Part shown: piece by piece, positions 1,984-58,405 of the stretch
Layout of the letters: every line of letters starts with the position of its first letter
Numbering within the stretch: the first letter of the stretch is position 1
Assembly: GCA_963971305.1 (NCBI GenBank)
Contig: OZ020314.1
Span: 992,001 to 1,056,000, forward strand
From: Arcuatula senhousia
Taxonomy: Eukaryota; Mollusca; Bivalvia; Mytilida; Mytilidae
Reading direction: 5' to 3'
Length of the DNA: 64,000 nt
Translations under genes and position numbers: made by a program
The notes under the pieces: generated by a model
The model's database searches: none
What the model was told of the DNA's origin: nothing
Seen by the model: the letters and a program-made list of their open reading frames with translations, nothing else

Positions 1984-3194
1984 GTTACTCCTTAAAATAT
2001 GCATATAAAGCATGACCAAATTAACTTTTTCTTATACCCATTTCGTATTGTATTTTGAAACCACTTGGTCGACAACAGCTGCTGGTGGACCAGATGTCGT
2101 CGAGGGTAATTACAAAGCTGGTCGTCAGACTTGTCTGACACAAATTTTCCAATAAAATCTGATATTTGTGTCATTGAAATTTTCAATAATTAAATTCAAA
2201 ATTGTTTAAACACCAGTTTTCTATCCTTGTACTGCACATAGTCGATATCCAACATACTAGATTAGGCTTCCTTGTTTAAACATTTTTGGGTTTGAGTTCT
2301 TTTTTGTTCAACACTTGTGGTTTTTTACCTTCCAATGTTTTGTTTCAAATGCTGCTGATGAGAGGTTACTCCTTGAAATATGCATATACAGCACAACGAA
2401 ATTTCTTGTTTTTATACCTGTTTTGTTATTGTATTTTGAAACCACTGGGTCAATAACCGCTGCTGGTGGACCAGAGGTCCTTGAGGGTAATTACAAGGCT
2501 GGTCGTCAGACTTGTCTGACACGAATCTACCAATAAAATCTGATATTTTTGTCATTGAAATTTTTAATAATTAAATTCAAAATTGTTTAAAACACCAGGT
2601 TTCCTTCCTTGTACTGCACATAGTCGATATCCTCGGTGCTGGATTTGGCTTCCTTGTTCAAACATTTTTGGGTTCGAGTACTTTTTGTTCAATACTTTTG
2701 GTTTTTGACCTTCCAATGTTTTGATTCAAATGCTGCTGATAAGAGGTGACTCCTTGAAATATGCATATACAGCATAACGAAATTTACTGTTTTTATACCT
2801 GTTTTGGTATTGAATTTTGAAACCACTGGGTCAATAACCGCTGCTGGTGGACCAGAGGTCCTCGAGGGTAATTACAAGGCTGGTCGTCAGATTTGTCTGA
2901 CACGAATTTACCAATAAAATCTGATATTTTTGTCATTGTTTCCGATGTTAAATTCAAAATTGTTTAAAACACCAGGTTTCCTTCCTTGTACTGCACATGA
3001 CAGATATGCTTGGTGCTGGATTTGTCTTCCCTGTACGATTTTTTTTTGTATGAGTACTTTTCGTCCAATATTTTTGGTTTTTGACCTTCCAATGTTTTGA
3101 TTCAAATGCTGCTGACGACAGGTTACTCATTGAATTATGCATATACAGCATAACCAAATTTACTGTTTTTATACCTGTTTTGGTATTGTATTCT
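1984..3194 (+). repeat. Tandem 381-bp retrozyme-like array (about 3.2 units)
   Basis: Four successive copies share a block starting ttactcctt and running into a palindrome atatgcatat, at 1985, 2366, 2747 and 3123 (periods 381, 381, 376). Between blocks each unit carries a conserved GC-richer segment with gctgctggtggacc and a later ggctggtcgtcag. The block boundaries hold a hammerhead ribozyme (see 2350-2393). Tandem repeats of 170-400 bp with type I hammerheads are known in animals as retrozymes, which give small circular RNAs. The first unit lacks the 5' half of the hammerhead and abuts a Penelope-like 3' fragment ending at about 1982; the last stops at about 3194. No ORF. Confidence 0.75.
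2350..2393 (+). ncRNA. Hammerhead ribozyme (type I, minimal), intact core
   Basis: All core elements are in order. Stem I is TGCTG (2350-2354) with CAGCA (2389-2393). CTGATGA is at 2355-2361. Stem II is GAGG/CCTT closed by a 5-nt loop. GAA is at 2375-2377. Stem III is ATAT/ATAT closed by GC. Position 17 is A2388, so predicted cleavage is between 2388 and 2389. The next unit has CTGATAA (G8 changed, predicted dead), the last has CTGACGA with a damaged stem II and A15.1, and the first lacks the core. One of four copies is therefore predicted active. Folding was done by eye only. Confidence 0.75.
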
Positions 3195-13987: not shown

Positions 13988-16900
13988 GTCAGTAATACTA
14001 TTTTATTTTATATTCTATGGAGTTTAGATCAAAATGTTAAACTGGCATATGATTTTTATGCCCCATATGTACAAAAGGGTTATGTTCGACCGTCGATCCC
14101 AAATGTTGAGAGATGAGGCATCATTATGTCCATGATGTCTTCCGGACATATTTTTGTTTCAACTTAAATTTACAAGTATTTAGTGTTAAGTATTGGTAAG
14201 AAATTTTATGGAACAGCCAGGGAATTCAGGATTTAAACCAATAAAACTGTTACAAAACTGTTATTTGGATTTTTGATTGGTTAAAAAACATGGCTGCCAT
14301 GGTTGAAAAGAGAACATAGGGGTACAATCTGTTTTTATGCCCTGCCAACTTTGTCTGTTCGTCCATTCTTCCGTCCGTCACACTTTATTTTCTGCACTTT
14401 TTTCGACATCCTTGCATACATGTATATTTAAAAGATTCTTAGTATGTGAGTCAACCATGATGAGTTACAGGTCATGTTTGAGTTTCGTTTGAGTCAAAAT
14501 GTCATTTATTTTATCTGCAAGCGGGGCATGAGTGTCATCTTCAGATCTTGACACATTTCCTTATTTGCAAAAAACTCAAAATCCGTCACAGATAAAAAAA
14601 AATTCTGGCATAAAAAAAAGTGAAGAGCACCTCAAGATCTCTCTTCCATGCAATTTTGAAGAAGATCCAACTACCCATGTAGGAGTTATTGCCCTTTTTC
14701 CTCATTTTTTCCAAATTTTACACTTTTTCAGCTTACTATTTGAGAAATTTAAATTGCATATTGTTAAGCACATAGAGATCTACAACATGTACAAAAATGT
14801 TACAGAATTAATGATGAAGGACCGTCCCTTTTAGTCAAAATTGACCATTTTAACCACCTTTCCTAATTGTATTGCAAACTGTAAAAGGTAGATAAAAAGT
14901 TTTAATTACAATATTGCCTAGCTAGTTTGATGGGAGACATATTGTTTTTGTCCTGTCCGTCCATCTGTTTGTCACAAAGTTTGTTAACACAACTCCTCTG
15001 AAACTACTGAACTGATTTCAACAAAACTTGGTATGTAGGAAGGAAACCATAAGGTGTCATGCATTTGATCAGGAAATTTTTATCCTCCAATTTTTGTGGG
15101 AGTAATGGCCCTTTGAACTTAGAAATTTGGTGAAAATTCTCATCTATCATCTTGTCAGTACAATCTGCTGGAACTACTGAACTGATTACAAGGAAACTTG
15201 ATATGTAAGAAAGACACCATATGTAGTTGTGCATATTACCAAGAAATTTTGATTGTCACTTTTTCGTGGGAGTTATGACCCTTTGAACTTAGTAATTTGC
15301 TTTAAGACTTCATTGATCATCTTGTCAGTGCAACTCGGGTGGCATCTAAAACAACTGAACTGATTTCAAAGAAACTTGATATGTAGGAAATACAAATGAC
15401 AACAAAGTTCCAGACAATAAATTTTGCTACGCCTGACGCGTGTTTCGTCTATTCAAGACTCATCAGAGGCGCTCTACCAAAAATATTGAAAATGCCAAAC
15501 ACTATAGGATTATGTAGAGCATAGAACATTAAACCAAAAATATCAAACTGGGAAACCAAATTATTACTAAGATGATCAACCTATGTCTGGGGTAGGAAGA
15601 GCCTTAGGGTTTAGACAATTTCATAATTTAAACGGGTAATTTAAAGCTTTGATGTGTTCTCCAACACAAAAGTGTTGGTGCCGGAGCGGGCTAACCTCGG
15701 GGAATTAAAACTCCACCAGCAGTGCTAACCTTCACGTGTGTTCGAAATACAAATGACAACAAAGTTCCAGACAATAAATTTTGCTACGCCTGACGCGCGT
15801 TTCGTCTATTCAAGACTCATCAGAGGCGCTCTACCAAAAATATTGAAAATGCCAAACACTATAGGATTATGAAGAGCATAGAACATTAAACCAAAAATAT
15901 CAAACTGGGAAACCAAATTATTACTAAGATGATCAACCTATGTCTGGGTTAGGAAGAGCCTTAGGGTTTAGACAACTTTGAAATTTAAAGGGTAATTTAA
16001 AGCTTTGATGTGTTCTCCAACACAAAAGTGTTGGTGCCGGAGCGGGCTAACCTCGGGGAATTAAAACTCCACCAGCAGTGCTAACCTTCACGTGTGTTCG
16101 AAATACAAATGACAACAAAGTTCCAGACAATAAAGTTAAAGACACCATATGTAGTTGTGCATATTACCAGGAATTTTTTATCCTCAAATTTTTGTAGGAG
16201 TTATGGCCCTTTGAACTTAGAAATTTGCTGAAAATCCTCTTTAATAATCTAGTCAGGGCAACTCCTCTGAAACTTTTTTTCCTCCAATTTTTGTGGGAGT
16301 TTGGCCTTTTGAACTAAGAAATTTGCTGAAAATCCTCATTTAACATCTTGTCAGTACAACTCGTCTGAAACTACTGAACCAATTTCAACTAAATTTGGTA
16401 TGCAGGAAGGACACCACATGTAATTGTCACTGTGCATGAAGCAAAGGTGTACCAAAGGGGTAATCAGTATCATAAAACCGTGAAGACAAAGACAAAACCG
16501 GCAGACAAAAAATCATCACAACAAAACAAACCATATAACAACATAAAACACACACACATAACAACAAAACTGCATTCAGCAACGCGAACACAAGTCGAAA
16601 CGAGAGTGAACTCAGGTGCTCCGGAAGAGTAAGCAGTTCCTGCTTGCTATAGCACACCCGTCACGTTGCCAAAGATCGATTAAGTGTTGGTCAAATCCGG
16701 AAAGGATGACATCACAAAACTCTATGTCAAACCAACATCTGTGCTCATCTGAGAGATAGAAATCCCGTATTTGCATACAAGCACATGATGTCGTCCGTAA
16801 AATTTCTTGAGTGATGACAACAACCTTGGAGCAACGTACCCCTGTGTTAACAATTTGCTTGTCAGCCGTGTAGCTCTATCAAGGAAGTCGTTGTACTCCC

Positions 16901-19900
16901 CACATGCTCTGGAATAACGAATCAATTGTGATACGTAAACTCCATATGCTGGAGCGGACGGAATGTTGCTACACAGAAAGGGAAAGTTAACTATTGGAAA
17001 GTTGAAGTCATCACGTTTGTCATAGAGCTTTGTACAAAGCCTTCCTTGTGTGTCAATTTCGAGAAATAGATCCAAATATGAAGCAGACCTCCTAGAAACC
17101 TCCTAGACACCATATTACCAGGAAATTTTGGTCCCCACATTTTTGTGGAGTTATTTAACCTTTGGAACTTAGAAAAAATTTGGGGAAGGGTGGAGACATT
17201 GTTATCAGTCAGGGGACTGACACATTCAAGTCAGAAATCATTTGACTTAATAAAGTAAAAAAAGTTTAGAGTTGTAGCAGTCATTTTGTAGAAATGACAC
17301 ATTTAAGTCAAAAAAGTTCAGCTAGACCTGTTAAAGTCAAAAAGTTTTGATCCAACATGTTCAAAGGAGTCCTTTAATTTTAATATGATCAGTATTCTCA
17401 ATAATTTTCTGCTCTCACCTTTTAAAAATAATATTTTGTTTCCTTGGACATTGTTGGTATTTATGACACTTGTTCATTTAAAAGTAAGTAATATTTTTCA
17501 TATTAAATTATGGTGTCCGATTTTTTAGAGAGTAGTGATTATTTTTCTATTCAATGTGAATGAAAAATACTATTCATTCCAGGTGAAAATGTTTTGGCGC
17601 TTGACCTCATTGGCAGGGTGTGTGACTTTTCATGCATGTAAATTATATGACTTCAAGAAGTCAGAAAATGTTTTATACATATTTATCATGTTTATATTAC
17701 TGACTTGTATAAGTCGGATGAAAAAGGAAGACAACTCTTTTTTGCACTATAAATGACTTCTATAGGTCAGAAAAGAATTGACTTGCTAATGACTGGTTAT
17801 TGCAGGCAAAAACAAATGTTTATTATTTAATTCATCTAATCACATGTTTTTCCACATTTTTAGAACCAATACAAGTAACAATATTAACTGAAGACACCAA
17901 AGTCTTACAGGGAAGCTCACTAATCCTGACCTGTACTTTTAATGGAGATTCTTCACCTTCAGCTGTTCTATGGACCAGATCTAATAGGGGGCCTGAGGAG
18001 GACGTTCAGCTGACTCCAGACAAATATAGTGGTGGTACTGTAGATAATCCCTCTCTGACTGTCCATCATGTTAAAGCTGAAGACTCTGGAGTGTATGTCT
18101 GTAAATTAACATTTGATGGTGACCAAGTCTCCAGCAACCCACTGACAATAAATGTTGGTAGGTTTAAAACTTTGTATTAAGTTCATTGAAACATGGTATT
18201 CTTACTTATTGGCTGTTGTTTAAAACTTTTTGTAAGACTTTTGTGGAAATTACATGTAGCAAAGAGGTACCGATGGGTTATTTGAGTGTCCGAAAGGACA
18301 ATGATAAAACCAGTAAAGATAAACGAAAACCACAAACCATTTAAAAACACAAACATTGACAAATCAACAATGTGAACTCAAGTCGTAACAAGAGTTTACT
18401 CAGGTGCTCCAGAAGAGTAAGCAGTTCTTGCTTGCTCTAGTACACCTGTCAAACTGCCAATGGTCACTTAGATGTGTCAAATCTGGTAAATGAAGACAAG
18501 ATAAAATGTATGACAAAACAGCATCTGCACTCATCTGAGAAATAGAAATCCAATATTTGTTTATGAGCACATGAAGTCTCCCAAAAAATTTCTTTGATGA
18601 ACCTAACCTTGTGTTAGCAATTTTTGATGTGATGCTCTGCCAAGGAAACTGATGTCTCTCGCAAGTCCGTAACCCAGATAATCCTGTCCTTTTTGTTAGC
18701 TCACCTGACCTGAAGGGTCATGTGATCTATTGCCATCACTTGGCGTCTGTCGTCTGTCCGCAGTTGGTCGTACTTTAGTTTTTTTCAAACAACTTCTTCT
18801 CTGAAACTGCTTGGCCAAATGCAGCGAAACTTGTTATGGTTGTTCTTTAGGGTATTGTACAAAAAGTTTGCGTTGGGATTTTTGATATGTCATGTGTATG
18901 TCAAAAAATATGGCCACTGTTACTAAAAATAGAACAGGGGGTCAAATATAGTTTTTTGCAAATAACTCAAAAACAGTCACAGATATCAAAATTCTGGCAT
19001 GTAAAAGTGATCAGCACCTCAAGATCTACCTGCCCAGAAGTTTTCAAAAAGATCCAACAACCGATGTAGGAGTTATTGCCCTTTTTCTGGATTTTTTCAA
19101 AATTTTGCAGTTATTTAGCCCTATATCTTGAAAACTTTAAAAGCTATTTCAAAAATTCAAATTGCATATAATTAAGCACATCAAGATCTACATTTCATGT
19201 AATTAGGTCAAAGCTGTAGGACCATTCCTTTTAGGAGTTATTTCCCTAAAAAATTCAAAATTTACCATTTTTCATTACTTCTCCCTGAATTTCAAAGATT
19301 AACTTGTCTTAACTAACCCTAACTTGTCTTCACATGGTCTATATACTCAGTGCTGGATTTGGCTTCCTTGTTCGAACGTTCCAATGTTTTGGTTAAAATG
19401 CTAATGATGAGAGGTTACTCCTTGAAATATCGATACATAGCATATCCAAATTAACCGTTTATACCCGCGTTTTGTTATTTGTAATTTTATATCAGGACTT
19501 AATACCTTTCCAAATTAAAGAGTCCAAATTGGTATGGAGTGTTCTCAGTTTGTACAACTTCATTGGTCATCTAATATTAATTATTCAATCTTACCACATG
19601 TTTTCACATTTTCAGAACCAATAAACGTAACAATATCATCTGAGGAGACCACAGTCTTACAGGGAAGTTCACTGATCCTGACCTGTACTTTTAATGGAGA
19701 GTCTACACCTTCAGCTGTTCTATGGACCAGATATCGAGAATCTGGGGAGGACATTCAGCTGACTACAGACAAATATAGTGGTGGTATTGTAGATAATCCC
19801 TCTCTGACTGTCCATCATGTAAAAGCTGAAGACTCTGGAGTGTATGTCTGTAAATTAACATTTGAGGGTGACCAAGTCTCCAGCAACCCACTGACAATCA

Positions 19901-22900
19901 ATGTTGGTAGGTTTACTTTGTATTAAGTTCATTGAACCATACAGTATTTTTACAAAAGGCTGCAGTTTAAACTTTTTGTTAGGCTTTTGTGGAAATTACA
20001 TGAAGCAAAGAGGCACTGATGGGTTGTTTGAGTGTCAAAGGTCTGAAACTTGCAGTGTTGTCCATCCATCCCAAATAAATGTAGCAAGATGGGTTTTATT
20101 GTCCCCTGCCGCAACGCGTCGGAAGGACTTAGTAATACCCTTGCAGAAATGCAACAGGATATCTTGTGATAACTTGAGATTTTCATGAGATATCTTGATA
20201 AAACATCTCAAGATAATCACAGGATATCTTGATCTGTTTGGTCAGGATATTTCAGGATGTTATTGGAACAGGATTTTTCAGGATAAATATCCTGACAGGA
20301 AATGGACCAGGATTTTTATCTCAGGATCAGGATTAATAATGCCAGGATAATCCTGATATTTATCCTGAAAAATCCTGTTCCAATAACATCCTGAAATATC
20401 CTGACCAAACAGATATCTCATGATTATCTTGAAGCCAGGATAATCATGAGATAATTATCCTGAAGCCAGGATAATCATGAGATATCTGAGATTTCCTGAC
20501 ATCAAGATTTGCATATTTCTTTATTTGCTGTCAATTTTTATAGGATTATATTGGCTTAATGACATAATTCCAAAGTTTTAAATTTCATCATTTTTAATCA
20601 TCTCGTTTGTGTCTCTTCTTTAGGTAGATGTTTCATTTTGACAAGTTTTCAGTCTGTCCTTCATCATGTGTGAAGTTGAGTTAAAAGTTGCATCAAATCT
20701 TTCCATCAGAAGGACTGAAAATAAAAAATAAGCATGATTAAGAAACATATAAAAGATGGTAGTATTTTTGAATTGAATGTTTTATCATTTTTGAGAATCA
20801 GGAATAAATTTTGCTTCTTAATTACCACATTCTGCCCCCAAGAATGATCCCTGCAATGATTAGTGGTTGTTATTTTACAACTCTTGTTGGTGATCAAAGA
20901 GCTTTAATACATTTCACATTTGTTAAAATTTTTGCCATCTTCAAAAAAATGTACAAATTACACATGAAACCTTTACGAGTAGTTATACAAATAAAATGCA
21001 AATACATATTTCTGTATAGGATAAGCCCGTATTCTTTATTATGACTTACATTCAATCTTTCTTTTTTCAGGGTCTAAACCAAGTTTTGTACTTTTCTTGT
21101 TGTTTGCCATTATGACACTTCTTGTTGACGTCAATGTTTTCTTAACAGGAATGAAAGCACATCACTTGCCCCTTTTCCGGTTGCAATTCCCAGCTCTCAA
21201 CTTATTCTGTAACATGCACACATGTAGCATACATTAACCTAAAACATATAAAATTCTATTAAGTAATCTGATTCAAAAACCTAATTAAAATCTATTGTAA
21301 GATCCACAGCAGTGACCCTCCATTGTAAGAGAGTTTAATTATCTGTTGAAAATGTGAATGTAACCTAATGGCTACTTTCATGATAAATCAATTCAGTGAA
21401 ATTAAGGATTAAGTGTCAAGTTGCTTTACATATTGCATGTACATAAGGGAGTCATAAACATGTGGTTTCAATTTTGACCTGAATAAATAGGTCACATTTT
21501 TGTGTACAGGTTTACAAAGAAAATGAAATTGTTTGAGTCCTAATAATGTAATAATCTGACAGTGATAAAGCTTACAAAAATAATGAGTCAATGAAAAACA
21601 ACAAACATTATTTTATAATAAGTAAAATCAATCTTAACATACTTTAGAAAGAACTTACCAATTAGTTGAGCAGCTCAGGATGAAGAGTCTATTATTTCAT
21701 TCCATTTCATGTAATTTATAGGTTTATGTGTAAAATGGTTTCACAAATAATTTCTATGTGATTACACAAATGTGCACTTACACATGTATGGTTTTATCTT
21801 CCTTATAATCCATCAGAAACCCACATTTTCTAACATTTTCAAGTAACATCAAAACAATTTACAAAGCTCTTTGTCAGGAACAACCTTGACATACAATGTA
21901 ACAGATTTGAATTGGGCCAATGGTGGCACCTGATAAGATTTTCAAATACTGTAAGGTCACTTGAGGGATACACAGAATAAACATTTACAATAATATTTCA
22001 CTTTTAACTACAAAATTAATTTACCATGTTTCATCAAACATATTTTTTCCTTATTTAAAAAACTTATATTTCATAATATAATAAAACAAAATTTTTTTAA
22101 TACATGTATTTTTTACAATGAAGATTTCCTATCCCCATTTCTCCCTCTTCTTATCATGTTACACTTAAACAAAGAACAATTCTTGATATATCTTGGAACC
22201 AGGAATTTAGAAAATCACTGTATGTAGATAATGTAAGAAAAGATTCCTGAACTATCTTGACTTCAGGACTTTAGAAAATCACTGTATGTAGATATTGTAA
22301 GAAAAGATTCCTGAAATATCTTGACTTCAGGACTTTATATTGACTTAAATCCTGAAGTCATTCAGCTCTAAGTAAAATTCCTGGCTTATCCTGATAGCAT
22401 CCTGATCCTGATCTCAAGATATCTCTGGATACAATTTTCCAAAAAATGGCCACCAAGATAAAACAGGAGGTCTCATGATAATCATGAGATATCTTGATAC
22501 ATCCTGACACACCAGGATCCATTTCTGCAAGGGTCAGGTCTCCGTCCGTCCGTCTGTCACATTTTTTGTGGGTGCAACTCCTCGGACACTACTGAACAGA
22601 TGTTGCTGAAACTTTACACACTGATAGGGTACTATTAGTAAGTGATCATCCCATATTTGAAATTTTCAAAATGGCCGCCGTTTTCATGGAAACAGGGAAG
22701 AAAGGTAAAAATATAGGACATTCAATATCTCGGTTACCTAAGTGCACAGGGTTCTGAAATTTTGTAGGCTGATAGACATGATAGAGTAAAATGAACTCTA
22801 TAATAATACGAAAAAAAATTTTGAAGCGATATTTACGGTTTTTGAGTTATTTAATATGAATTTGTGATTTTTCAGTCTGAAAAATGGGACATTGTCAAAC

Positions 22901-25900
22901 ATTTTTGTGGGTGCAACTCCTTGGATACTACTGAATGGATGTTGCTGCAACTTTACACACTGATAGGGCACTATAAGTAGATGATCATCCCATATTTGAA
23001 AATTTCAAAATGGCCACCGTTTCCATGGAAACAGAGAAGAAAGGTCAAAATATAGGACATCCAATATCTCGGTTACCTAGGTGCACAGGGTAATTGACAT
23101 ACCACACAACTATCATGCGACAACTGGGGACACTTGACTACGCATAGCAATCTTGTGTCTTGGGGGCATATTCATTTAAGTAAAAAAAAACTATTTAGAT
23201 TTCCACTTGTTGATGCTGGCTGTGTTGTGTATACCTATGTCATTATTTTCTTTAAGTCATGTATGATTAAGATTAATATTGTTCAAACCAATCAGCCATC
23301 ATTTGGTGTCCAGCATCTGACGACCCTCGGTTCATAAACTTTTTCAAATATAAAATCATCTGACACCAAAGAAGTAACAAAAATGGTACAGTTGAATATT
23401 AGCATATATGTGGTACAAAACTGTCCTTTAGATTTTTATTTGATTTGTCAAAATATGGCTAAAAATTTAAGATCCGTCAAATTGCAGATATTTTAAAACG
23501 TTTTATGTATAAATTCCAATCTTTTATTTAAAGTGGTAGTACATGTATGAGTTTTATTTTGTCGAAGTCATATTTGATTATATGAAGTTCTTATAGGTCT
23601 TTACACTTTTATTTTAGATACAACAAGTGCTGTTTTATCTGAGGAAACAAACTATTTACGGATATACCTTTTGTGTTTGAACATTGGCACAGATTCTGTC
23701 CGCCATTATTTTGATAGCCATGTGCCACCATCTTCATTACATGGCCATCTAAGCACACATGAACACAACTTAAGATATACACAACCAATGAAATGTAACA
23801 AGGACCAGCTTAACTTACTCTTCCCAGGTAAATACATTAAATCAAATGTTAGTGGAATTTTAGATCAATTGAAGCCTCCTTATATCTAACATTTTTATAT
23901 TCCCCGCAAAGAAAATTTGGGGGTGGTATATAGGAATTACTCTGTCTGTCTATTTGTCCGTCCATCCATCCATCCGTCTCTAGATTAATTTCCTTCACAG
24001 ATTTCTCAGCAACTACATGACCCAGAGGTCTGATATTTTGCATATAGCTTTATCCTATAGTGCCGTGTGGTGTATAACAATTTTATGCTCCTAGGTCAAG
24101 CACATCTTGTTTACCACATACTTAGGTTTTTACACATATGGAATAGAAACGATTACAGATATAGAAAAGCTTTTTCGTGCTCAAAAATACATGTTAAGAG
24201 CCTTTACAAAAGTATCCAATAGATCGAAGGGATTCCGCCTTTTAGTTTTGGGCTCATAAAATGTAAAACTGTTAACTTGCAGATTACGAAAAAAAAAAAT
24301 GCTGGCTAAAATGTTCAACTTCAGAAGCTTCACAAACCTCTCCCTTCATTTTACTTGAGTCTAATAGACTTTCTACGTACATGACAAATTGTCAACTAGC
24401 AAATCTTTTAAAGTTTCTGCTCTGCCAAATGAAGATTTACAATTTGAACACACAAAGAAAATAGAAATATCTGATATCATTATGTTTTGTAGCTAAACCA
24501 ATGTTGCCTGTGTCATCGACATTTGATTTCTCACTTCTCTATAAGTTGATCAGAAATACATTGATAGTGCCACTACCAGCTCGGGGTTGGGGATTCCCTC
24601 CACAGGCCAGTGATATATCAGATGAAGATGATGTGGAGCGTATCAGAAAGTATAGGAATCTCCTAGCTCATATTGAGCATTGCAAAATAGAGCAGAGTGT
24701 CTTCAGTACCATGTGGACTGAGCTCAGCCAGGTAAGTAACTAGTACAAATCAAAGTGCTAAAGTGTTTAAAGGCAAGCGAAATATATAAGTACTTTAGAA
24801 GATTTATTCTCTATTGAAGTTTATTGTTCAAATATTTGCAAAATAATTGGTGAGCGAAGAAGGGATGGTTAAATGCAGATGCTCTCAACGTTAATGAAGA
24901 CAATACAAAAATGGAATCGATTGAAACATCCCTTCGATTAAGATGGACTTGTCCCATTGATGTGTATTGTGTATTAATTTTTATGAATGAACCCAACTGA
25001 ATGATCAATCCTTGCATTGACCAATCAAATAAGAGAAATATTTGTACTAACCAATGAAGTAATAGATGAATACATAATGTATATTCTATCTCCTCTAACT
25101 TAATAGTTCGTCAAGTAAAATGCAAAGGAATAAATAAAACTTGTGCCGGTCATATAAAATGCAAATAAAACTAGAGATTTATAAAAGTGTGTTTCATGTT
25201 AACAAATATTGAAAAGTAATATAGAAAATAAAGCTTTTTGCCAGACTGGATGCAGGAAAATCACTCCGTCTAGACTGAAAAAAAAACATGAAAATCATCA
25301 CTACTCTATAGACTTGATAAGGCTTCCCTGCGCTTGCCAAAAAATTGAAGCATTCAAGGTGTCACCGCGTAGTCCGTGCACCACCCTAGGCGGAAGCTAG
25401 GTTTAGCAGTGAAAAGACCCACAGGACAAAGTGGGCATGGGGTGGCATTCTAATATCAGACAAAACAACAAGTTTTAACAATTTATATAAACACAATTCA
25501 ATATTAAAAACAATAACAAAAATAATTCAAAGTTGAAGATTTCACAAAGTCCAAAGTTTAGAATTTCACAATTAAATTTGATTCAAAGTCTAAATGAAAT
25601 ATTTAAAAGTCCAAAGAATAAAAGTTAGCACAGTTTCGAAAATCCAATGAATTTGAGTTGAATGCTGCTGCGGTGGCGGGTTGGTCCAGTCTTGTTCATG
25701 TCCTGAAGTGGCGACTTGTTCAGTTTGATGCTCACTCTTTGTCAGCAGCCAGAACGTCTGACTGTTCAGCTGTTTTAACCTATGAAAAAGTGATGAGAAT
25801 TTGAAATGAATTTATAAAACTGACATTTATGATGCAATGAAGACCTTACACATAATAAAAATATGGGTTACCATGCAAAAATGTTTGCCTCATTTTGATG

Positions 25901-28900
25901 GAAAAACCCGAGGATTCCAATAAAAATGTCAAAAATCTCAAAAGCTGACCCTCCAGCATCCTTAACTAAATAAAAATAAAATCTAAATTTGATTTTATAA
26001 AAATCAGAAAAATAAAGAATTAAATTACATAATAATATTTTAACAAAAACTGTCCCTATTACAAAGGTATAAAAACCCTGTGTGTTAAGCCTAAAACATT
26101 TAGCTCATAGTCAGACAGAATAAAAGAGATGTAAAAAAAATTGACGTGATAATCCTTAACAGTGCTGTGAATTTTGAAATTTTGATGTATTATAACTTAT
26201 CACCATAGGGATTTTCCTAATGCATTTTGGTTATTTGTCCCTAACCATTTTACCAAAGGGGCAAAATGGATAGAGCTGTTGTAGAAAAAGTGTACAAATC
26301 ATGTCAAAGGGCAATAAAATGTCATAAATTTGGGCAAAAAAAACCCAAGACATCACTGGTTGAGTGATGATAACAACCAAGGTAGGTCTGTCTATCTAGG
26401 TCATAAGGGCAACTAATCTTAAAGCGCTTAATGGAGTTTGATGAAACTTGATGTGATCTTTTTTGTAAGAGTTTAGTGGAATATGAGTTACTTGAAAATT
26501 ATAATAGCTCTGCATCAGATATTTAAGAAATGATGAATTAAATTAGGGTTATTGCATCCGTCACTTGATATCTGACCTTGACCTCATTTTACACTCGATG
26601 ACTGACAAAATTGATTTGTGTTCAGTCTTTTATGGTTAGTCTGTTTCTCAATGACTATGATAGAAGCAAAGAGGAACCAAGGTGTCAAAAGTCAACAAGA
26701 ACAGCACCAGAAATTAACTGAACAGAAATCAACAAGTGAACTCAAGTCATAACTAGAGTGAACTCAGGTGCGCCGTAGGAGTAAGCAGTTCCTGTCTGCT
26801 ATAGCATATCGTCGCTTTGCATATTCTCAATTCAGTGTGTCAAATCCAGTAAAGGCAGACCGAACAAAACTCCATGACAAACCAAGATCTGCACTTATCT
26901 GCGAGATAGAAATCAATCAAGAATCACTTTGGTTGGTCCATAGGAAAATGCCCTCAGTCAATTACCAAATGACCTTGACATTTCTTTACCTTTGAATCTC
27001 AAAAGCATATCTTTAAAATCCTCAAATAATTCATGCATTTAGATTTGCAATATCTTCAACAGGCAATACAGAGATTGAGCAAAGGATCCTTAACTACTGA
27101 AGTAAACAATTTAGAACACAAAAGACTGGACCAAGATATCAGAAGTCAAATGGTGGAAGATATCCTACAATTTAGGAAAGAGGTAAAAGATTTACAGCAA
27201 GAGGTTGAAGACATAATAAAAAGTCAGAAAGACCAACAAGCAAGAATAGAAAGTCTGGAGGCTCGGCCAGTTCCACAACACATACCAAAACACATCAGAG
27301 GTAAGAATTATTGGTCCATAGGAGTGATGACGATTTGTTGTAATGGGAAATTTACATGTTCTAATGTTTGCGAGTCAGATGTTTCATCATCCTGGAAAAC
27401 AGTCAGTGATTTTGTTACCTTTTTTAAAAGCAGCCTCCTCCTTTTGAGTTGGGACATTTTATAGCAATTTTGGGAAAAAATATCGACAAAAAAACAGACA
27501 AAATCCTTGGTTGTTTAACAATTAAAAGACATATTAAGATGTTTCGTAAATTTATTTTGACACAATTGTTACTGATAGTGAAGAGTTCTACAGATTCATT
27601 TTTCTGTCTTTTAACCCTTTAAACATATCCACTAATCTTGTAAGATCAGTATTTGTCAGGTCTTCATTTCGATGGCAAACATTTCACAGTATTTACACAA
27701 AAAACCTGCTTTACTATTTGAATAGTACAACCAGTGGTACAATGTTTCATATTTGGCAGGATAAAATTTGCGTTGATCAATAAATATTTCACTGGTACTA
27801 GGAGAGTCAGACTGACTGTCATTCAGTTTCCTTATTTTGGGGGAATCAGGATGTGTTTCAATATTTGATTCACGGTCACCGGATTTGTCAATGTCGGCAA
27901 GACTTGAGCAAGTAGAAACTACGTTTCCAATAATAACGTCAAGTATCGCCGTAACTACCCGCTTGGATTCAATTTTACTTTGCTGAGAAGCAGCTCCACT
28001 GACAGCAAATAATTCCTTTATTTTAAACGATCCCGCTGCATCACGCTTTGTCAGTTTTTTTGTGTAATATTTACTATTATGGGACATTATGTTTCCCGTT
28101 TTTTATTGGGTTTATTTAAGATCGGGGAGCGAATCGAACTTTCTGATAGAAATTCCGAGTAAAAAATCGTATTCACACCGAAGCCGGTGTCCTAAGATCC
28201 GGGTCTTCACATGTCTTAATCAACAATGCGCTTCAGGAAATGGAGAAAAACATTGAAAAAACGATGTTTGAAATGAATTAAAAGACAAGTAAATAAATCA
28301 ATCGTAGCGTGATCACGTATGAGAAAAACTTTTACCTCCAAAAGGCTCGAACGCGTTGGGAATTTTAAAAATTTTGGGAAATAAATACACAAATTTGGGA
28401 AAACATATCTAGGGGAAACAGCCGATATTCGGAGGCAATTTGAGCCTAACAAAATCACTGACAGTTTTTTTCTGGTATGATTATTGAATTTTAAATCAAC
28501 GTCACTTTGCAAAAACCATTAAAGCCCTGCAGTTTAACATTATTGTATAAACTAGTTGCTTTACTTGAGTTGATGTTTCTAATTGCAAGAAGCAAAGGTG
28601 TACCAAAGGTGTACCAAAGGTGCAATCAAATATTGTTGTTAACTCTTATCCTGAAAAACAAACTTGGTACACATAAAATCATCAGAAAAAAACAAACAAC
28701 ACACAACTACAAAACTATAATCATCAACACAAACCAAAGACACGATTTGGTTATAATATTTTGTGTACCCCGCTTCAAAGAAGAGGAGGATATACTGTTT
28801 TACCTGTGTCCGTCTGTAGTTCTGTGATTCCATAGTTTTACCTGTGTCTGTCTGTAGTTCTGTGATTCCATAGTTTTACCTGTGTCTGTCTGTAGTTCTG

Positions 28901-31900
28901 TGATTCCATAGTTTTACCTGTGTCTGTCTGTAGTTATGTGATTCCATAGTTTTACCTGTGTCTGTCTGTAGTTCTGTGATTCCATAGTTCTGCCTGTGTC
29001 TGTCTGTAGTTATGTGATTCCATAGTTTTACCTGTGTCTGTCTGTAGTTCTGTGATTCCATAGTTTTACCTGTGTCTGTCTGTAGTTCTGTGATTCCATA
29101 GTTTTACCTGTGTCTGTCTGTAGTTCTGTGATTCCATAGTTTTACCTGTGTCTGTCTGTAGTTATGTGATTCCATAGTTTTACCTGTGTCTGTCTGTAGT
29201 TCTGTGATTCCATAGTTTTACCTGTGTCAGTCTATAGTTCTGTGATTCCATAGTTTTACCTGTGTCTGTCTGTAGTTCTGTGATTCCATAGTTCTGCCTG
29301 TGTCTGTCTGTAGTTCTGTGATTCCATAGTTTTACCTGTGTCTGTCTGTAGTTCTTTGATTCCATAGTTTTACCTGTGTCCGTCTGTAGTTCTGTGATTC
29401 CATAGTTCTGCCTGCTTTCTTTTCCCCCTTTTTGTTTACTCATTACTAATCTAATTTTTGTCACAAGCTTGATATTGACATAATACATAGTGGGATATAT
29501 TTCTAGATCAATCAGATATCTACTTCAAGCTAAATGAAAACCTAATTTTTTTCTGCCATAGTTTAATTCCGTCCCACTTTTTGTATGATTATAACTCTGC
29601 AACTATTATTTCTACTTTGCTTATATTTAGTTACAAGCTTGGCATGTACACCATGTATAGTGAGATATGATTTAGGATCCATTATACATCTACTGTTTGT
29701 TTACCAAAAATGAAAAAAAAATCTGTCACACTTTTCATTCACTTAGTGTATTATTCAGCAACTAATACGCCTAGGTTGCTGATAGTTGGACAACTGAAAA
29801 TCCATGTAAATTCATAATATAGTGGAAGTAAAAAAGAATGATTCTTTCTGATGGTGCTGGCAGGTGCGACATACCTTAGTGTAACTCTTGTTTAGATCTT
29901 GTTTAGATCTATCAGACATCTACTTCCTGTTAACCATTAACGAAATTTTTCTGTCGAACTATTGTTTAAATTCCATCACTCTTTTCATACATGAACAGCA
30001 AAATATTTGCAGATGAATTATGATATGGTTGTTGTTTACATTGTCCGTTAACTTAAGTGTTCCTATAATAAGTATATTTCTACTCAGATGATAACTCATG
30101 GCATAGTTGTGGGGCAGCAAGCATTTATATATTTTGCATTTTTTTTGCAGATGGCCAGATTACTCAGCTAGATGCATGGGCAGCAGAAGATTTGGTGTTC
30201 TACAGTGGAACAGCAGCTGTAAAAGAAGTTACAGATAAAGTCAACCAACATCAGATTGTGACAATAATAGGAGGTCCTGGAGCTGGGAAGACAAGCATTG
30301 CAAGACATATAGCACTGGAATACCAGAAACAGAAATTTGAAGTTTTACCTATTTGTCAACTAGAGGACATTATACAGTTTGGTGACAAATCTGTGTCTCA
30401 GGTTTTTGTACTTGATGATGTGTTAGGCGTTTTTTCTTTTGATGTATCATTATATAACAAATTCAATAACATTAAAACCAGTATTTTGTCAGCAATAGGT
30501 AAACAATCAAGACTTATTTGTACCTGCAGAACTTTAGTGTATAATCAGGCTAACAAGGTTGGCAGTTTTGTACTAGAAAATGTTATTGATGTTGAGAGTA
30601 AGTCAAATCAGTTAACTGTATTAGACAAGATAAATATATTCAAAAACCACTGTACAAACAAAAATGTTAAGGAACAATTTGATAATCTATCATTTGAAAA
30701 TTGTAATTTTATGTTTCCCTTGTTATGTAGAATTTTTGTAGCATCAGATAAACATTTTAAGAATCCCAAAGCTTTTTTTGATCACCCAGTGGATTGTGTT
30801 AAAGATGAACTCGACAAAATGGCGGAAATGAAAAGAACACAGTATGCAGTTTTGGTCCTGTGTATGATGAACTCCAAGAAGATATCATGCATGAACAAAC
30901 CTTTGACATCCATCAACAAGGATTTAATAAATGACATCTTTGACTCATGCAGTGATTGTGCAAACCCAACCAACAGTCAGATAAACCAAGCACTACAACA
31001 TTTATCTGGAACATACCTCACTATATCTGGTGACCACTACACATTTATCCACGACTCCATATATGAAATTGTTGCCTTCCATTTTGGAAAACAGCATGTA
31101 GAACTCATGATAGAATACATGCCTAGTACATTTGTTCGGAACAAACTTGTTATATCAGGAACAAAATCAGTTGATCAGCTCAGTATTGAAGTCACAGAAA
31201 ACATGTATCCATTATTAGCTGACCGACTGTTAAAAGATATAAAAGATGGAAAGCTGTATGATGTATTTACCAACCCTGCTCTTTCTCATGGACACTTTGT
31301 TGATGTCTTCATGGACATTCTAAAGAATCAGTTGTCATATCAACAATTCAAAGAAATGTTCCTTACAGTAATGAAAGGTGATACAGACCACATAACACAA
31401 CAGAGTGAAAAGATGGCAGTAAACAAGGAAGAGGGTACTCGTAATTATGATGAACAAGAACGTCAGAATCTGTTGTTAGGGCAATATTACTATACTAAAT
31501 ATTCAATACGTATTATCAGCTTCATTATATACTATGGCCACAGTCATCTTTTACAGAGTATCATTGGTTATGCCCTCAGTGAACTTGATATAATGACATC
31601 TGTAATTGGATCTGACCTATCAGAACAATCACGGTTACTTAACTTAGCAGTCTACAGTGGTAATGTAGATGTTTTACATGTTTTATTGAAGTATACAGAA
31701 AGTAATGCTGTAAATGTATCGGCATTTGGTGATGGTATGAATCCTTACATTAATTATCATAGGAAACATACACCACTTACAGCAGCATGCAATGTGGGTA
31801 ACATGTCTGCTGTTAAGATTCTTTTAGAAATGAATGGAATAGTTAACCCTGAAAATAAACCTTACTACATACCTTTGGTAGAAGCAGCAAAGAAAGGACA

Positions 31901-33425
31901 CCTTGATATTGTAATACACCTGGTTAACCATGGTGGGGATGTGAACCTCTGTACTGAGGATAATGAATCACCTCTGTACACTGCAGCCAGGGGAGGACAC
32001 CTTGATATTGTGTCTTTCTTGGTTGAACATGGTGGGGATGTGAACCTCTGTACTAAGTATAATGAATCACCTCTGTATGCTGCAGCCAGGGGAGGACACC
32101 TTGATGTTGTGTCTTTCTTGGTTAACCATGGTGGGGATGTGAACCTCTGTACTAAGTATAATGAATCACCTCTGTATACTGCAGCAGGGGAAGGACACCT
32201 TGATATTGTTTCCTTCTTGGTTAACCATGGTGGGGATGTGAACCTCTGTACTGAGGATAATAGATCACCTCTGTACACTGCAGCCAGGGGAGGACACCTT
32301 GATATTGTTTCTGTCTTGGTTGAACATGGTGGGGATGTGAACCTCTGTTCTAAGTATTTTGGATCACCTCTGTTTATTGCAGCAAGGAGAGGACACCTTG
32401 ATATTGTGTCTTTCTTGGTTAACCATGGTGGGGATGTGAACCTCTGTACTGAGGATAATGAATCACCTCTGTACATTGCAGCAATGGAAGGACACCTTGA
32501 TATTGTAATACACCTGGTTAACCATGGTGGGGATGTGAACCTCTGTACTATACGTAATGAATCACCTCTGTACACTGCAGCAGGGGAAGGACACGTTGAT
32601 ATTGTGTCTTTCTTGGTTAACCATGGTGGGGATGTGAACCTCTGTGATGAGGATAATAGATCACCTCTGTACACTGCAGCAGGGGAAGGACACCTTGATA
32701 TTGCTTCTTTCTTGGTTAACCATGGTGGGGATGTGAACCTCTGTACTAAGTATGATGAATCACCTCTGTATACTGCAGCCAGGGGAGGACACCTTGATAT
32801 TGTTTCTTGCTTGGTTGAACATGGTGGGGATGTGAACCTCTGTACTAAGTATGATAATGAATCACCTCTGTACACTGCAGCCATGGGAGGACACCTTGAT
32901 ATTGTGTCTTTCATGGTTGAACATGGTGGGGATGTGAACCTCTGTACTAAGTATAATGAATCACCTCTGTTTATTGCAGCATGGCTAGGACACCTTGATA
33001 TTGTGTCTTTCATGGTTAACCATGGTGGGGATGTGAACCTCTGTACTAAGTATAATAATGAATCACCTCTGTACACTGCAGCCAGGGGAGGACACCTTCA
33101 TATTGTTTCCTTCTTGGTTAACCATGGTGGGGATGTGAACCTCTGTGATAAGGATAATAGATCACCTCTGTACACTGCAGCAGGGAAAGGACACCTTCAT
33201 ATTGTTTCCTTCTTGGTTAACCATGGTGGGGATGTGAACCTCTGTGATAAGGATAATAGATCACCTCTGTACACTGCCTCATTGTATGGACGTTATGACA
33301 TAGTTAAATTCTTGCTTAAGAATGGAGCAAAAGTAAATCACGGGAAATCTCCAATTGATGTAGCAAGACGAGCAAGACATGAAGACATTGTAGAACTTCT
33401 ACAAAAGTACCAATATGTCAATTGA
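13891..33425 (+). CDS. Gene 1: Ig-Ig-HEPN-coiled coil-STAND NTPase-ankyrin protein (7 coding exons)
   Basis: Assembled gene model. Coding exons are 13891-13987, 17864-18157, 19616-19906, 23618-23827, 24493-24731, 27063-27300 and 30151-33425. All introns are GT/AG and the junction phases agree (1,1,1,1,0,1). Total 4,644 nt, 1,547 residues plus stop. Domain order: short basic N-terminus, two Ig domains, DZIP3-like HEPN, coiled coil, P-loop STAND NTPase, ankyrin solenoid. No signal peptide is visible in exon 1, so a cytosolic or nuclear protein is inferred despite the Ig domains. STAND ATPases are signalling switches; HEPN domains with an R-x4-H motif are commonly RNases; ankyrin repeats bind partners. 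The inferred role is an NLR-like sensor/effector in innate immunity. The chain from HEPN to ankyrin is strongly supported because the same exons recur in a paralogue at 58-63.6 kb. Exon 1 and exact Ig usage are less certain; no transcript evidence was available. Confidence 0.75.
13988..15386. repeat. Gene 1 intron 1, first part: interspersed repeats
   Basis: Holds a degenerate copy of the agctcacctg family (about 14270-14870). From 14930 comes a second family with actactgaactgatttcaa, aacttggtatgtaggaagga and gagttatggccctttgaact phrases repeated at about 155-190-bp intervals. That family continues after the retrozyme (16137-16435) and after the Penelope-like copy (17113-17170), showing it was the original host of both insertions. 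Related copies are at 55905-56160. Confidence 0.6.
15430..15471 (-). ncRNA. Hammerhead ribozyme, copy 1 of the 357-bp retrozyme
   Basis: On the minus strand: stem I CGCCT/AGGCG, core CTGATGA, stem II GTCT/AGAC with a 5-nt loop, GAA, stem III AC/GT with a 4-nt loop, and a canonical GTC cleavage triplet. Predicted cleavage lies opposite 15434/15435. All catalytic positions (C3, G5, G8, G12, A13, A14) are conserved. The very short stem III is typical of metazoan retrozymes and Penelope-like elements, where activity is helped by dimerisation. Confidence 0.85.
15787..15828 (-). ncRNA. Hammerhead ribozyme, copy 2 of the 357-bp retrozyme
   Basis: Same design as the copy 357 bp away. The only visible difference is in stem III, here a self-complementary ACGCGCGT giving one more base pair and a 2-nt loop, so this copy is predicted more stable. 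Core CTGATGA, stem II GTCT/AGAC, GAA and a GTC cleavage triplet are intact; stem I is CGCCT/AGGCG. Predicted cleavage lies opposite 15791/15792. Confidence 0.87.
16436..17112 (-). mobile_element. 5'-truncated Penelope-like copy in gene 1 intron 1
   Basis: Minus-strand RT C-terminus open from 17075 to 16722 (LFLEIDTQG, YDKRDDFNF, APAYGVYVSQLIRYSRACG, ending STDVGLT), followed by the 3' UTR to 16436. It sits inside an interspersed repeat: left flank ends gtgcat and right flank resumes atattaccagg, giving at most a 2-bp duplication. Antisense to gene 1. Confidence 0.8.
17200..17795. repeat. aagtca-rich segment, possible MITE
   Basis: Bounded by cagtcaggggactgac on the left and aatgactgg on the right, with many internal gacttaa/aagtcag motifs. 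The pattern resembles the 9023 MITE (termini cagtca, internal aagtaa), but termini and target duplication are not convincing. Confidence 0.3.
17864..18157 (+). CDS. Gene 1 exon 2: Ig-like domain 1
   Basis: A 294-bp phase 1-1 exon, 98 codons, flanked by tttttag and a gtaggt donor. It encodes one Ig-like (V/I-set-like) domain. The B-strand cysteine lies in LILTCTF, the core Trp in AVLWTR, and the F-strand motif is DSGVYVC, the classic D-x-G-x-Y-x-C. The exon is framed by EPIQVTI and PLTINVG. Symmetric phase-1 single-exon Ig domains are typical of metazoan Ig genes and allow skipping or duplication without frame change. Exon plus about 130 bp of downstream intron is duplicated at 19616, about 1,752 bp away. 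Without a signal peptide or transmembrane segment, disulphide formation and cell-surface display are doubtful. Confidence 0.85.
18250..18690 (-). mobile_element. Penelope-like 3' region fragment between the Ig exons
   Basis: Degenerate copy of the 3' end: gcaaagaggtaccgatgggt, then gctccagaagagtaagcagt, then remnants of the RT C-terminus region around 18520-18600. The first about 45 bp also occur after Ig exon 3 (about 19999-20043), evidence that the insertion predates the Ig exon duplication. Confidence 0.6.
18703..19300. repeat. Copy of the agctcacctg family between the Ig exons
   Basis: Begins agctcacctgacctgaaggg and shares atggccactgttactaaaaa, aactcaaaaacagtcacaga and aggagttattgcc with the 10195 element. 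Truncated at the right, where the retrozyme relic begins. Confidence 0.6.
19300..19490 (+). repeat. Relic of the 381-bp retrozyme
   Basis: Matches the unit of the 1984-3194 array: a gctggatttggcttcc block, then ccaatgttttg, then gatgagaggttactcc near 19409. The hammerhead is degraded: core C3 is changed (AATGATGA) and the stem III palindrome is broken. It is a single dead copy in the intron upstream of Ig exon 3. Confidence 0.65.
19616..19906 (+). CDS. Gene 1 exon 3: Ig-like domain 2
   Basis: A 291-bp phase 1-1 exon (97 codons) between ttttcag and gtaggt. It is a near copy of the first Ig exon, with the same Cys in LILTCTF, AVLWTR and DSGVYVC motifs, and is one codon shorter in the loop after the Trp. 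The downstream intron is also shared with exon 2, including a Penelope-like 3' fragment near 20000. The two Ig exons therefore arose by tandem duplication after that retroelement fragment had landed. The Ig exon of the paralogue at 56796-57662 has the same 291-bp length once its insertion is removed, and its upstream intron matches 19510-19615, so exon 3 is its closest counterpart. Confidence 0.85.
20137..22534. mobile_element. 2.4-kb element with inverted termini and strong hairpins
   Basis: Termini acccttgcagaaat (20137-20150) and its inverse atttctgcaagggt (22521-22534). Subterminal zones at 20150-20510 and 22180-22520 are packed with caggat/atcctg and gatatctt motifs, including a perfect 59-bp inverted repeat. 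It belongs to a roughly 3-kb block in gene 1 that is absent from the matching intron of gene 2 (about 57750), consistent with insertion. No transposase was recognised. Confidence 0.6.
20233..20413. repeat. Perfect 59-bp inverted repeat (hairpin)
   Basis: Arms 20233-20291 and 20355-20413 are exact reverse complements by inspection, with a 63-nt loop. Arms begin tctgtttggtcaggatattt. As RNA within the gene 1 intron it would form a long duplex. Confidence 0.85.
22560..23100. repeat. Two tandem units of about 340 bp
   Basis: Phrases gtgggtgcaactcct (22568 and 22907), ctttacacactgataggg, aaaatggccgccg/ccaccg and atatctcggttaccta occur twice in order. Belongs to a common interspersed family that starts with gtccgtccgtctgtcac. 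Confidence 0.7.
23618..23827 (+). CDS. Gene 1 exon 4: DZIP3-like HEPN domain, N-terminal part
   Basis: A 210-bp phase 1-1 exon, acceptor attttag, donor gtaaat. It encodes 70 residues beginning TTSAVLSEETNYLRI and ending NLLFPG. The pattern N-Y-L-R-I, then C-L-N-I-G-T-D-S-V-R, is the start of the DZIP3/hRUL138-type HEPN fold, where a conserved helix leads into an alternative helix and a P-G turn before the catalytic half in the next exon. The same exon recurs at 58196-58405 with very few substitutions. Function follows from the family: HEPN domains are helical bundles often acting as ribonucleases in defence and stress. Confidence 0.8.
23885..24120. repeat. Interspersed repeat in the HEPN intron
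   Basis: Starts ttatattccccgcaaa and continues with a ctgtctgtc/ccatccatcc tract, then ttctcagcaactacatgacc. A counterpart is at 58468-58700 in gene 2, so the insertion predates the duplication. Confidence 0.6.
24493..24731 (+). CDS. Gene 1 exon 5: DZIP3-like HEPN domain with RNLLAH motif
   Basis: A 239-bp exon with entry phase 1 and exit phase 0, donor gtaagt. Key segments: TFDFSLLYKLIRN, then ARGWGFPPQ, an acidic stretch SDEDDVERI, then the catalytic-type motif RNLLAH at 24654-24671 (R-x4-H) and a final MWTELSQ helix. FDxxLLxxLxRN...GW...P...D...DxxRIRxYRN..xH is the recognised signature of the DZIP3-like HEPN family. In active HEPN RNases the Arg and His of R-x4-6-H form a composite site on dimerisation. 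Both are kept here, so RNA cleavage is plausible but not shown. The paralogous exon is 59063-59301 with the same motif. Confidence 0.85.
24732..26663. other. Gene 1 intron 5, shared with gene 2
   Basis: No exon. Up to about 25740 it aligns closely with 59302-60320. A conserved GC-richer piece, caaggtgtcaccgcgtagtc and ctaggcggaagctaggttta, lies at 25357-25403 (59917-59963 in gene 2). From about 25780 the two genes differ, then match again at 26006-26260. About 26400-26660 is a copy of the gccggcagg family body. Confidence 0.5.
26664..26925 (-). mobile_element. Penelope-like fragment in the intron before the coiled-coil exon
   Basis: Recurrent 3' end elements: ggaaccaaggtgtcaaaagt, aggagtaagcagttcctg, gtgtcaaatccagtaaagg. 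A partial counterpart is in gene 2 at about 60900-61020, so the insertion preceded the gene duplication and was partly deleted in gene 2. Confidence 0.6.
27063..27300 (+). CDS. Gene 1 exon 6: coiled-coil linker
   Basis: A 238-bp exon, phase 0 in and 1 out; acceptor caacag at 27057-27062, donor gtaaga at 27301. About 79 residues, rich in Glu, Lys, Gln, Leu and Ile with heptad spacing, for example ILQFRKEVKDLQQEVEDI followed by QKDQQARIESLEAR. The end PVPQHIPKHIRG looks like a flexible hinge before the NTPase. The expected role is oligomerisation between HEPN and STAND modules. An alternative acceptor at 27041-27042 was rejected because it breaks the phase from exon 5. Nearly identical to 61158-61395. 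Confidence 0.75.
27403..28461 (-). mobile_element. 1,059-bp DNA transposon, inserted in gene 1 only
   Basis: Inverted termini tcagtgattttgtta and taacaaaatcactga, with CAG on both sides (27400-27402 and 28462-28464). Gene 2 has the uninterrupted site (ctggaaaacagttttgttct near 61490). The element carries a minus-strand zinc-finger ORF. Termini would suit hAT or CACTA-like groups, but a 3-bp duplication is not the 8 bp expected of hAT, so the class is left open. Confidence 0.75.
27656..28087 (-). CDS. Truncated TTF/ZMYM-type zinc-finger transposase-like protein
   Basis: 143 residues on the minus strand inside the 27403-28461 transposon. The N-terminus is basic and Ser-rich; the C-terminal half reads FYPAKYETLYHWLYYS and GFLCKYCEMF, the TTF-type (ZMYM1/hAT-associated) zinc-finger pattern of aromatic residues with a Cys-x2-Cys. 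Such domains precede hAT-type catalytic regions, which are missing here. The ORF ends at 27656 after the finger, so the element is non-autonomous. A domesticated DNA-binding protein is possible but unsupported. Confidence 0.5.
   Translation of the reverse strand: MSHNSKYYTKKLTKRDAAGSFKIKELFAVSGAASQQSKIESKRVVTAILDVIIGNVVSTCSSLADIDKSGDRESNIETHPDSPKIRKLNDSQSDSPSTSEIFIDQRKFYPAKYETLYHWLYYSNSKAGFLCKYCEMFAIEMKT
28585..28750 (-). mobile_element. Penelope-like 3' end fragment with duplicated tip
   Basis: Starts gcaaaggtgtaccaaaggtg with the caaaggtgtac unit repeated in tandem, then an A-rich tract like that at 16497-16570. A counterpart at about 61875-61913 and 62330-62420 in gene 2 has only one copy of the unit and is split by about 400 bp. 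Confidence 0.55.
28797..29414. repeat. 38-bp tandem satellite, about 16 units
   Basis: Unit gttttacctgtgtctgtctg plus tagttctgtgattccata. Very homogeneous, with occasional ttctgcc for ttttacc and ttatg for ttctg variants. Gene 2 has a single unit end at the equivalent place (62432-62450), so the array expanded in gene 1 alone. Minus-strand ORFs are artefacts of the period. Confidence 0.9.
29415..30150. other. Gene 1 intron 6, 3' part
   Basis: Closely matches 62451-63177 of gene 2. Contains a gctggcaggtgcgacat family end near 29860. Ends in the polypyrimidine tract and acceptor ttgcag at 30145-30150. No ORF of note. Confidence 0.5.
30151..33425 (+). CDS. Gene 1 exon 7: STAND P-loop NTPase (nSTAND3-like) plus ankyrin repeats
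   Basis: A single 3,275-bp last exon with entry phase 1. The NTPase has Walker A GGPGAGKTS at 30270-30296, Walker B VFVLDDV at 30402 onward with paired acidic residues, and a sensor-like LICTCRT at 30513-30533. This fits the novel STAND NTPase 3 group. A helical region follows (about residues 160-480 of the exon product). Ankyrin repeats start near 31630 with divergent units. From about 31896 come 14 units of 33-34 residues sharing HGGDVNLC and SPLYTAA, then a capping unit and IVELLQKYQ. Stop TGA at 33423-33425. Ligand-triggered ATP-dependent oligomerisation is the known behaviour of STAND proteins; the ankyrin array is the probable sensor. The strong DNA identity among repeats implies recent unequal exchange or gene conversion. 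Confidence 0.9.
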
Positions 33426-58195: not shown

Positions 58196-58405
58196 ATACA
58201 ACAAGCGCCGTTTTATCTGAAGAAACAAATTATTTAAGGATATATCTTTTGTGTTTGAACATTGGCACAGATTCTGTCCGCCATTATTTTGATAGCCATG
58301 TGCCACCAGGTTCATTACATGGCCATCTAAGCACACATGAACACAACTTAAGATATACACAACCAATGAAATGTAACAAGGACCAGCTTAACTTACTCTT
58401 CCCAG
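58196..58405 (+). CDS. Gene 2 HEPN exon a (paralogue of 23618-23827)
   Basis: 210 bp, phase 1-1, same acceptor and donor context as in gene 1. The protein differs at only a few positions (for example VPPGSLH for VPPSSLH). Reading frame is open. It forms the N-terminal half of a DZIP3-like HEPN domain. The surrounding introns are alignable to gene 1, so this is part of a segmental duplication rather than a retrocopy. Confidence 0.8.

Follow-up and report, generated by a model that had tools for sequence, protein, structure and literature searches.

The locus and its surroundings

The window, the 64-kb stretch of DNA analysed here, carries two related gene regions on its plus strand, at 17782-33422 and 56777-63587, with Ig domains, a coiled-coil-like frame and an nSTAND3 NTPase; the first also holds ankyrin repeats and the second continues past the window edge. 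Positions 30072-31500 form the first part of an nSTAND3-ankyrin frame whose best named relative is from Mytilus californianus (36% identity), with a further relative in Saccostrea (34%) among six matches overall; the host is therefore probably a bivalve. A tandemly repeated element with two hammerhead motifs lies on the minus strand at the positions given in Table 1. The plus-strand Ig domains fall in open frames starting at 17782 and 19519, the nearer of which begins about 1.6 kb downstream of the element. A previous reading of the locus, made from the sequence only, had rightly placed the element antisense to these frames, but had also assigned it to an intron of the immune-receptor gene. 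Given the distance to the nearest Ig frame, and given that neither a crude scan nor alignment to the paralogous gene revealed a convincing exon before 15387, the intron is one of two possible positions: the element may lie either in a first intron or upstream of the gene.

Fragments of reverse-transcriptase elements, putatively Penelope-like, are found nearby. In the second receptor gene, one Ig exon is split by such a piece (57040-57615) with a blunt join, the empty sites being 18110/18111 and 19859/19860, and a copy of 99.5% identity occupies 16439-17017, about 300 bp from the retrozyme. Among five neighbouring fragments scanned against Pfam, one gave a weak RVT_1 match below the cut-off (E 0.0039), and a profile of 15 sequences found no reverse transcriptase when compared with the PDB. 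Fragments of the same elements are present in several of the retrozyme loci described below, among the matches listed.

Self-BLAST of the minus-strand element aligns 15387-15778 with 15744-16134 at 98.2% identity and a unit offset of 357 bp, and the two units differ at 8 of 392 columns, five of which are clustered in 15619-15633. The insertion has a GC content of 39%, is overlapped by no open frame of at least 110 amino acids (stop to stop), and splits a 170-bp host repeat whose unoccupied form adjoins it. Non-LTR retrozymes of 350-390 bp have already been described in Mytilus galloprovincialis (PMC7229834). Type I hammerheads, tandem units of 357 bp (the criterion being about 150-450 bp), a GC content below 50% and the lack of a coding region (frames of at least 110 amino acids) identify the element, as judged by its anatomy, as a two-unit animal (non-LTR) retrozyme insertion and as a member of this already described metazoan kind. 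The dimer proposed in the sequence-only reading is thereby supported by the two hammerheads, by the repeat anatomy and by the published family description (PMC7229834).

Table 1. Positions of the retrozyme, its predicted parts and the adjoining empty site in the window
Feature	Position	Strand	Basis
Whole retrozyme insertion, 2.1 units of 357 bp	15387-16134	minus	Self-BLAST, host tandem repeat, unoccupied host copy
Type I hammerhead, RNA-upstream copy; predicted cut 15792/15791	15786-15829	minus	RF00163, 36.5 bits, E 1.6e-5
Type I hammerhead, RNA-downstream copy, one stem III mismatch; predicted cut 15435/15434	15429-15472	minus	RF00163, 32.8 bits, E 2.7e-4
357-nt monomer bounded by both predicted cuts	15435-15791	minus	Hammerhead coordinates
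48-nt tail beyond the last predicted cut; its end is the 3' terminus common to the family	15387-15434	minus	56/68 readable insertions and flanks
35-bp tail copy at the RNA-sense 5' end, identical to 15387-15421	16100-16134	minus	Self-BLAST
Adjoining element-free host repeat copy, used as empty site	15170-15240	plus	Host-repeat comparison

Hammerhead scores and predicted folding

The window was scanned against all 4227 Rfam families, and RF00163 (gathering score 34) matched both copies, with the RNA-upstream hammerhead exceeding the gathering score and the RNA-downstream hammerhead falling just under it due to an A.C mismatch in stem III. Their E-values place both hammerheads beyond chance, and a search of 15380-16140 to E 10 returned these two and nothing else. 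The loose pattern CTGANGA..GAAA alone, by comparison, occurs in the window at chance level (5 observed, 4.54 expected). The Rfam search and self-BLAST bear out the coordinates, strand and 357-bp spacing given in the sequence-only reading; the cut sites (15791/15792 and 15434/15435) and the 357-nt monomer between them likewise agree with the hammerhead coordinates, and the core motifs CTGATGA, GAAA and GTC are present in both copies. The description of the stems as matching was too strong, given the stem III mismatch of the downstream copy. Stem I appears by eye to have a distal part, UUUUG/CAAAA, past an internal loop.

Under a plain energy model the hammerhead fold (-9.7 kcal/mol) is not the minimum for either copy, the best folds reaching -14.3 and -14.6 kcal/mol, and the predicted 357-nt circle (-75.3 kcal/mol) is no stabler than its shuffles (-73.5 +- 4.9; z -0.37; 36 of 100 as low). 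Self-cleavage activity is consequently a prediction.

A Pol III promoter was considered, the unit having a tRNA-like look on its plus strand; it was rejected, as no A/B box pair passed threshold on either strand, and ARAGORN found no tRNA in the 64-kb window. We regard it as an even question whether the window copy is at present silent, a relic that lacks a promoter of its own and undergoes neither minus-strand transcription nor cleavage. The missing box pair is consistent with this, as are a review of the retrozyme family that also reports no promoters (PMC7761336), the below-cut-off score of the mismatched copy and the opposed orientation of the element and the plus-strand Ig frames; against it, both cores are intact and the other hammerhead exceeds the cut-off. 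Silence would concern the present state of this copy and leaves the mode of its insertion untouched.

The family in the same genome

At least 64 hammerheads at E<=1e-3, at least 62 of them over the cut-off, are present in the same 1.04-Gb genome (1.036 Gb, 1803 contigs), on contig 12 of which the window lies. The count derives from 74 scored out of 145,145 first-look candidates and is a lower bound, since the two window hammerheads are missing from the list. Sixty stretches around hammerhead matches (L006-L065) and the window piece were compared with a trimer of the window monomer, giving 82 insertions. Four sharing flanks with L032 were dropped as duplicates, the arrays L017 and L019 (fetched twice) were left out and four pairs that a later insertion had separated were merged; this left 72 insertions, 68 of them with the 3' end inside the stretch, in a sample that was picked by hammerhead score and hence is not random. 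Where both ends could be read (50 insertions), lengths range from 34 to 2010 bp, and 22 of these insertions fall short of one unit. In a tree of 79 leaves, 12 of the 16 multi-unit insertions (up to six units each) have their units together in one clade. Five stretches (L016-L019 and L057) are filled by long arrays of 358-359-bp units that are on average 97-99% alike within an array.

A shared 3' end

The RNA-sense 3' end lies 48 nt past the hammerhead cut in 56 of the 68 readable insertions, the window copy included, where this end (+48) was called if tail positions 21-48 matched at 70% or more and the next 20 nt at less than 55%. Those next 20 nt match at a mean of 0.25 in the 55 insertions whose 5' end is also readable, and BLAST alignments stop at 46-50 in 46 of the 68. 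The 5' ends of the same 55 insertions, by comparison, show a uniform spread across the unit (KS p 0.91); of 73 such ends, none falls at 46-50. Insertions other than the selected hammerhead match of their locus behave likewise, 12 of 16 ending at +48. Twelve insertions fail the criterion (L006, L021, L022, L023, L038, L041, L042, L044, L048 on the minus strand, L049, L052 and L060), six of them being less than 85% identical.

The terminal letters were compared with copies that span the same site within longer insertions, one per locus. T at +45 and at +46 is each kept in 54 of 56 terminal copies. At +47, T is found in 45 of 56 terminal copies as against 35 of 35 inside arrays (Fisher p 0.0057), at +48, C is found in 34 of 56 as against 33 of 35 (Fisher p 0.00044), and at +51, beyond the end, A is found in 17 of 56 as against 35 of 35. 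Given the drop at +47 and +48, the final one or two positions resemble target DNA or a primer that is loosely paired. Two other features of this region were considered and set aside. First, RNAalifold found no helix at the start site in 73 distinct sequences including the window copy, and so no conserved stem-loop. Second, in 35 insertions the tail (7-48) shows no clear excess of conservation, at 0.941 compared with 0.94 for the hammerhead and 0.88-0.94 elsewhere.

A fixed RNA-sense 3' end combined with ragged 5' ends is the kind of pattern that target-primed reverse transcription leaves, as in LINE and R2 elements. It is conceivable that the family instead spreads at the DNA level, through amplification as a satellite, through unequal exchange or through excised DNA circles that reinsert, the ribozyme being a passenger, and arrays of many units as well as copies within local duplications (L039, L052 and L060) would fit such spread. 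This is very improbable for two reasons: first, 56 of 68 insertions, whose flanks are unrelated, combine a fixed end with a ragged one; second, the fixed end is retained even by insertions that fall short of one unit (22 out of 50 measured).

No fixed insertion end of retrozymes was found in the open literature surveyed, as far as its texts were covered. As far as literature searches show, the signature is new evidence on retrozyme movement.

Unoccupied sites

Host sequence could be matched on both sides of nine insertions, and the unoccupied sequence is informative in four. The element ends in TTTC at the window, L039 and L031 sites, where the empty sites read GTGTC-TTTC, ACTTACA-TTTC and CTCAC-GTTC respectively, whereas that of L014, where the comparison is with a diverged repeat, reads CACC; TTTC or GTTC thus stands at the element end in three of the four. 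The matches for L034 and L051 are unconvincing, L039 has an additional match with a 3-nt gap, and for the tail-only pieces in L039, L052 and L060 the host match contains the tail. The L031 retrozyme is located within a reverse-transcriptase frame. Joining is blunt in L031 and L039 and leaves at most 3 bp in the window copy.

A general target duplication was considered and rejected, as matches of at least 5 nt occur in 26% of 50 insertions and in 21% of permuted pairs; matches of at least 8 nt occur in 4% of the 50 (two matches of 8 nt) and in 0.6% of permuted pairs. The tail-only pieces (34-37 nt) were also considered as the tail of an autonomous partner, an idea that was dropped because the upstream 200 nt look unrelated among the matches listed. 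Given that a second copy with the same flanks lies nearby, again among the matches listed, these pieces are placed in local duplications.

A model for insertion

The fixed 3' end, the ragged 5' ends, the multimers and the absence of a regular target duplication together favour target priming. Furthermore, given that the end lies past the cut and that copies cross the cut site, the template is suggested to be a circle or an uncut multimer, not a self-cleaved linear monomer. The account we favour, with slightly better than even confidence, is target-primed reverse transcription of an RNA, probably circular, with copying begun at a single fixed internal position that lies 47-48 nt past the predicted cut. 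The retrozyme would be transcribed from the minus strand, the transcript would cleave itself into 357-nt monomers and a ligase of the host, for instance RtcB, would close the monomer. A nicked target strand ending in ...GAAA-3'OH would then pair with UUUC at +45 to +48 and be extended by an enzyme acting in trans, likeliest a Penelope-like or LINE-type reverse transcriptase. The enzyme may copy part of a lap or several laps and stop at random, and the new DNA would be joined without a regular target duplication.

The same priming at a fixed site could also act on uncut linear multimers transcribed from tandem arrays, a scenario in which neither circles nor cleavage are needed. Long arrays exist (L016-L019 and L057), there are differences, some of them clustered, between the two window units, and the Penelope-like element PAc, which carries a hammerhead, uses unprocessed RNA in vitro, where its ribozyme mutants still insert (PMC11167929). 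We nevertheless hold this scenario to be unlikely, given that mussel retrozyme RNA is described as mostly circular (PMC7229834) and that the units of an insertion group together in 12 of 16 cases. The published circles and these unit clades together make the circle distinctly the likelier of the two templates; the clades could, however, also be obtained from local homogenisation, and the 8 differences in 392 columns between the window units, five of them clustered, count against a fresh single circle unless they arose later.

Several observations count against the favoured mechanism as a whole, namely that the hammerhead is not the minimum-energy fold, that the circle does not go beyond its shuffles, that L014 reads CACC and that 12 of 68 insertions do not show the +48 end under the criterion applied. 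PAc, too, counts against it: this element inserts in vitro from unprocessed RNA with a start site that lacks homology to the cut DNA (PMC11167929), unlike the retrozymes, where three of four targets match the element end.

An account published in 2020 holds that the return of animal retrozymes to DNA needs a properly primed circle, either target-primed or small-RNA-primed (PMC7229834). An end that copies share, always equally far from the cut, favours target priming and names the priming site. Extended to animal retrozymes in general, the proposal would be that they spread by rolling-circle, target-primed reverse transcription, in which a ...GAAA end primes at a fixed UUUC, +48, on a ribozyme-made circle that is copied for a fraction of a lap to many laps; we give this wider form an evenly balanced chance. 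If true, cleavage and ligation make of the transcript a template whose priming tail remains joined to the rest. The fixed-end signature is checkable by computer in other genomes with retrozymes, such as those of coral, axolotl and the Mediterranean mussel, and an autonomous element starting on a similar tail would provide a handle on the enzyme.

Relation to described elements

The window element resembles the M. galloprovincialis retrozymes in its type I hammerheads, tandem repeats, GC content below 50%, lack of coding capacity and many copies, a likeness judged from anatomy and description; a fixed insertion end does not appear in the text covered (PMC7229834). Circles, closure by RtcB in vitro and strong expression have been published for the mussel retrozyme (PMC7229834), and the release of a 357-nt RNA closed by RtcB, as envisaged in the sequence-only reading, would fit that case. 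Metazoan non-LTR retrozymes are further characterised by the lack of a primer binding site or polypurine tract and by a circular RNA predicted to be highly self-paired, for which the text covered sets no threshold (PMC7229834); the window circle does not go beyond what its composition gives. Target duplications there are optional and exceed 4 bp when present, as against at most 3 bp here (PMC7229834), and Nematostella repeats have 15-bp target duplications (PMC4918200).

Penelope-like enzymes have been proposed in print for retrozymes (PMC7229834, PMC7761336), and tandem copies with a hammerhead are shared with Penelope-like elements (PAc of Anolis, PMC11167929; Penelope of Adineta vaga, PMC3846280). 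In these elements reverse transcription starts in the RNA downstream of the hammerhead, the cut lying 26 bp and the start 111-118 bp into the ORF (PMC11167929), an optional tail measures 30-40 bp (31 bp for Pen2a_Av), and a target duplication is missing from some insertions (PMC11167929, PMC3846280). The window retrozyme, in turn, ends 48 nt past the cut, has a terminal repeat of 35 bp and, unlike Penelope-like elements with their reverse transcriptase and, in canonical members, GIY-YIG endonuclease, contains no open frame of at least 110 amino acids. Furthermore, PAc starts at an AC-rich stem-loop without homology to the cut DNA (PMC11167929), whereas the retrozyme has no conserved stem-loop and three of four targets match.

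Plant LTR retrozymes share with the window element a non-coding unit bounded by two hammerheads and a proposed circular RNA intermediate (PMC4918200). Their hammerheads are of type III and lie in LTRs, and they have a PBS, a PPT and 4-bp target duplications (PMC4918200), whereas the window element has type I hammerheads in a simple tandem repeat without LTR structure.

Other repeats and motifs

A 381-bp tandem array of 3.2 copies at 1984-3192, near the retrozyme unit in size and with CTGATGA-like words, gave no Rfam ribozyme match, and a weak match to PK-HAV at 2136-2191 (37.8 bits against a gathering score of 50, E 0.28) is likely due to chance. Five IMG/VR contigs (L001-L005) carry hammerhead-like motifs of the type I pattern, found with a loose hammerhead pattern, their notable similarity to the element being the hammerhead alone; two exact element patterns had no match in viral contigs or prokaryote genome contigs. 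Within the family, two pairs of retrozymes lie head to head, at L054:950-2811 (about 72 bp apart) and L027:1235-2846 (about 243 bp apart), and Penelope elements of A. vaga likewise show inverted pseudo-LTRs (PMC3846280).
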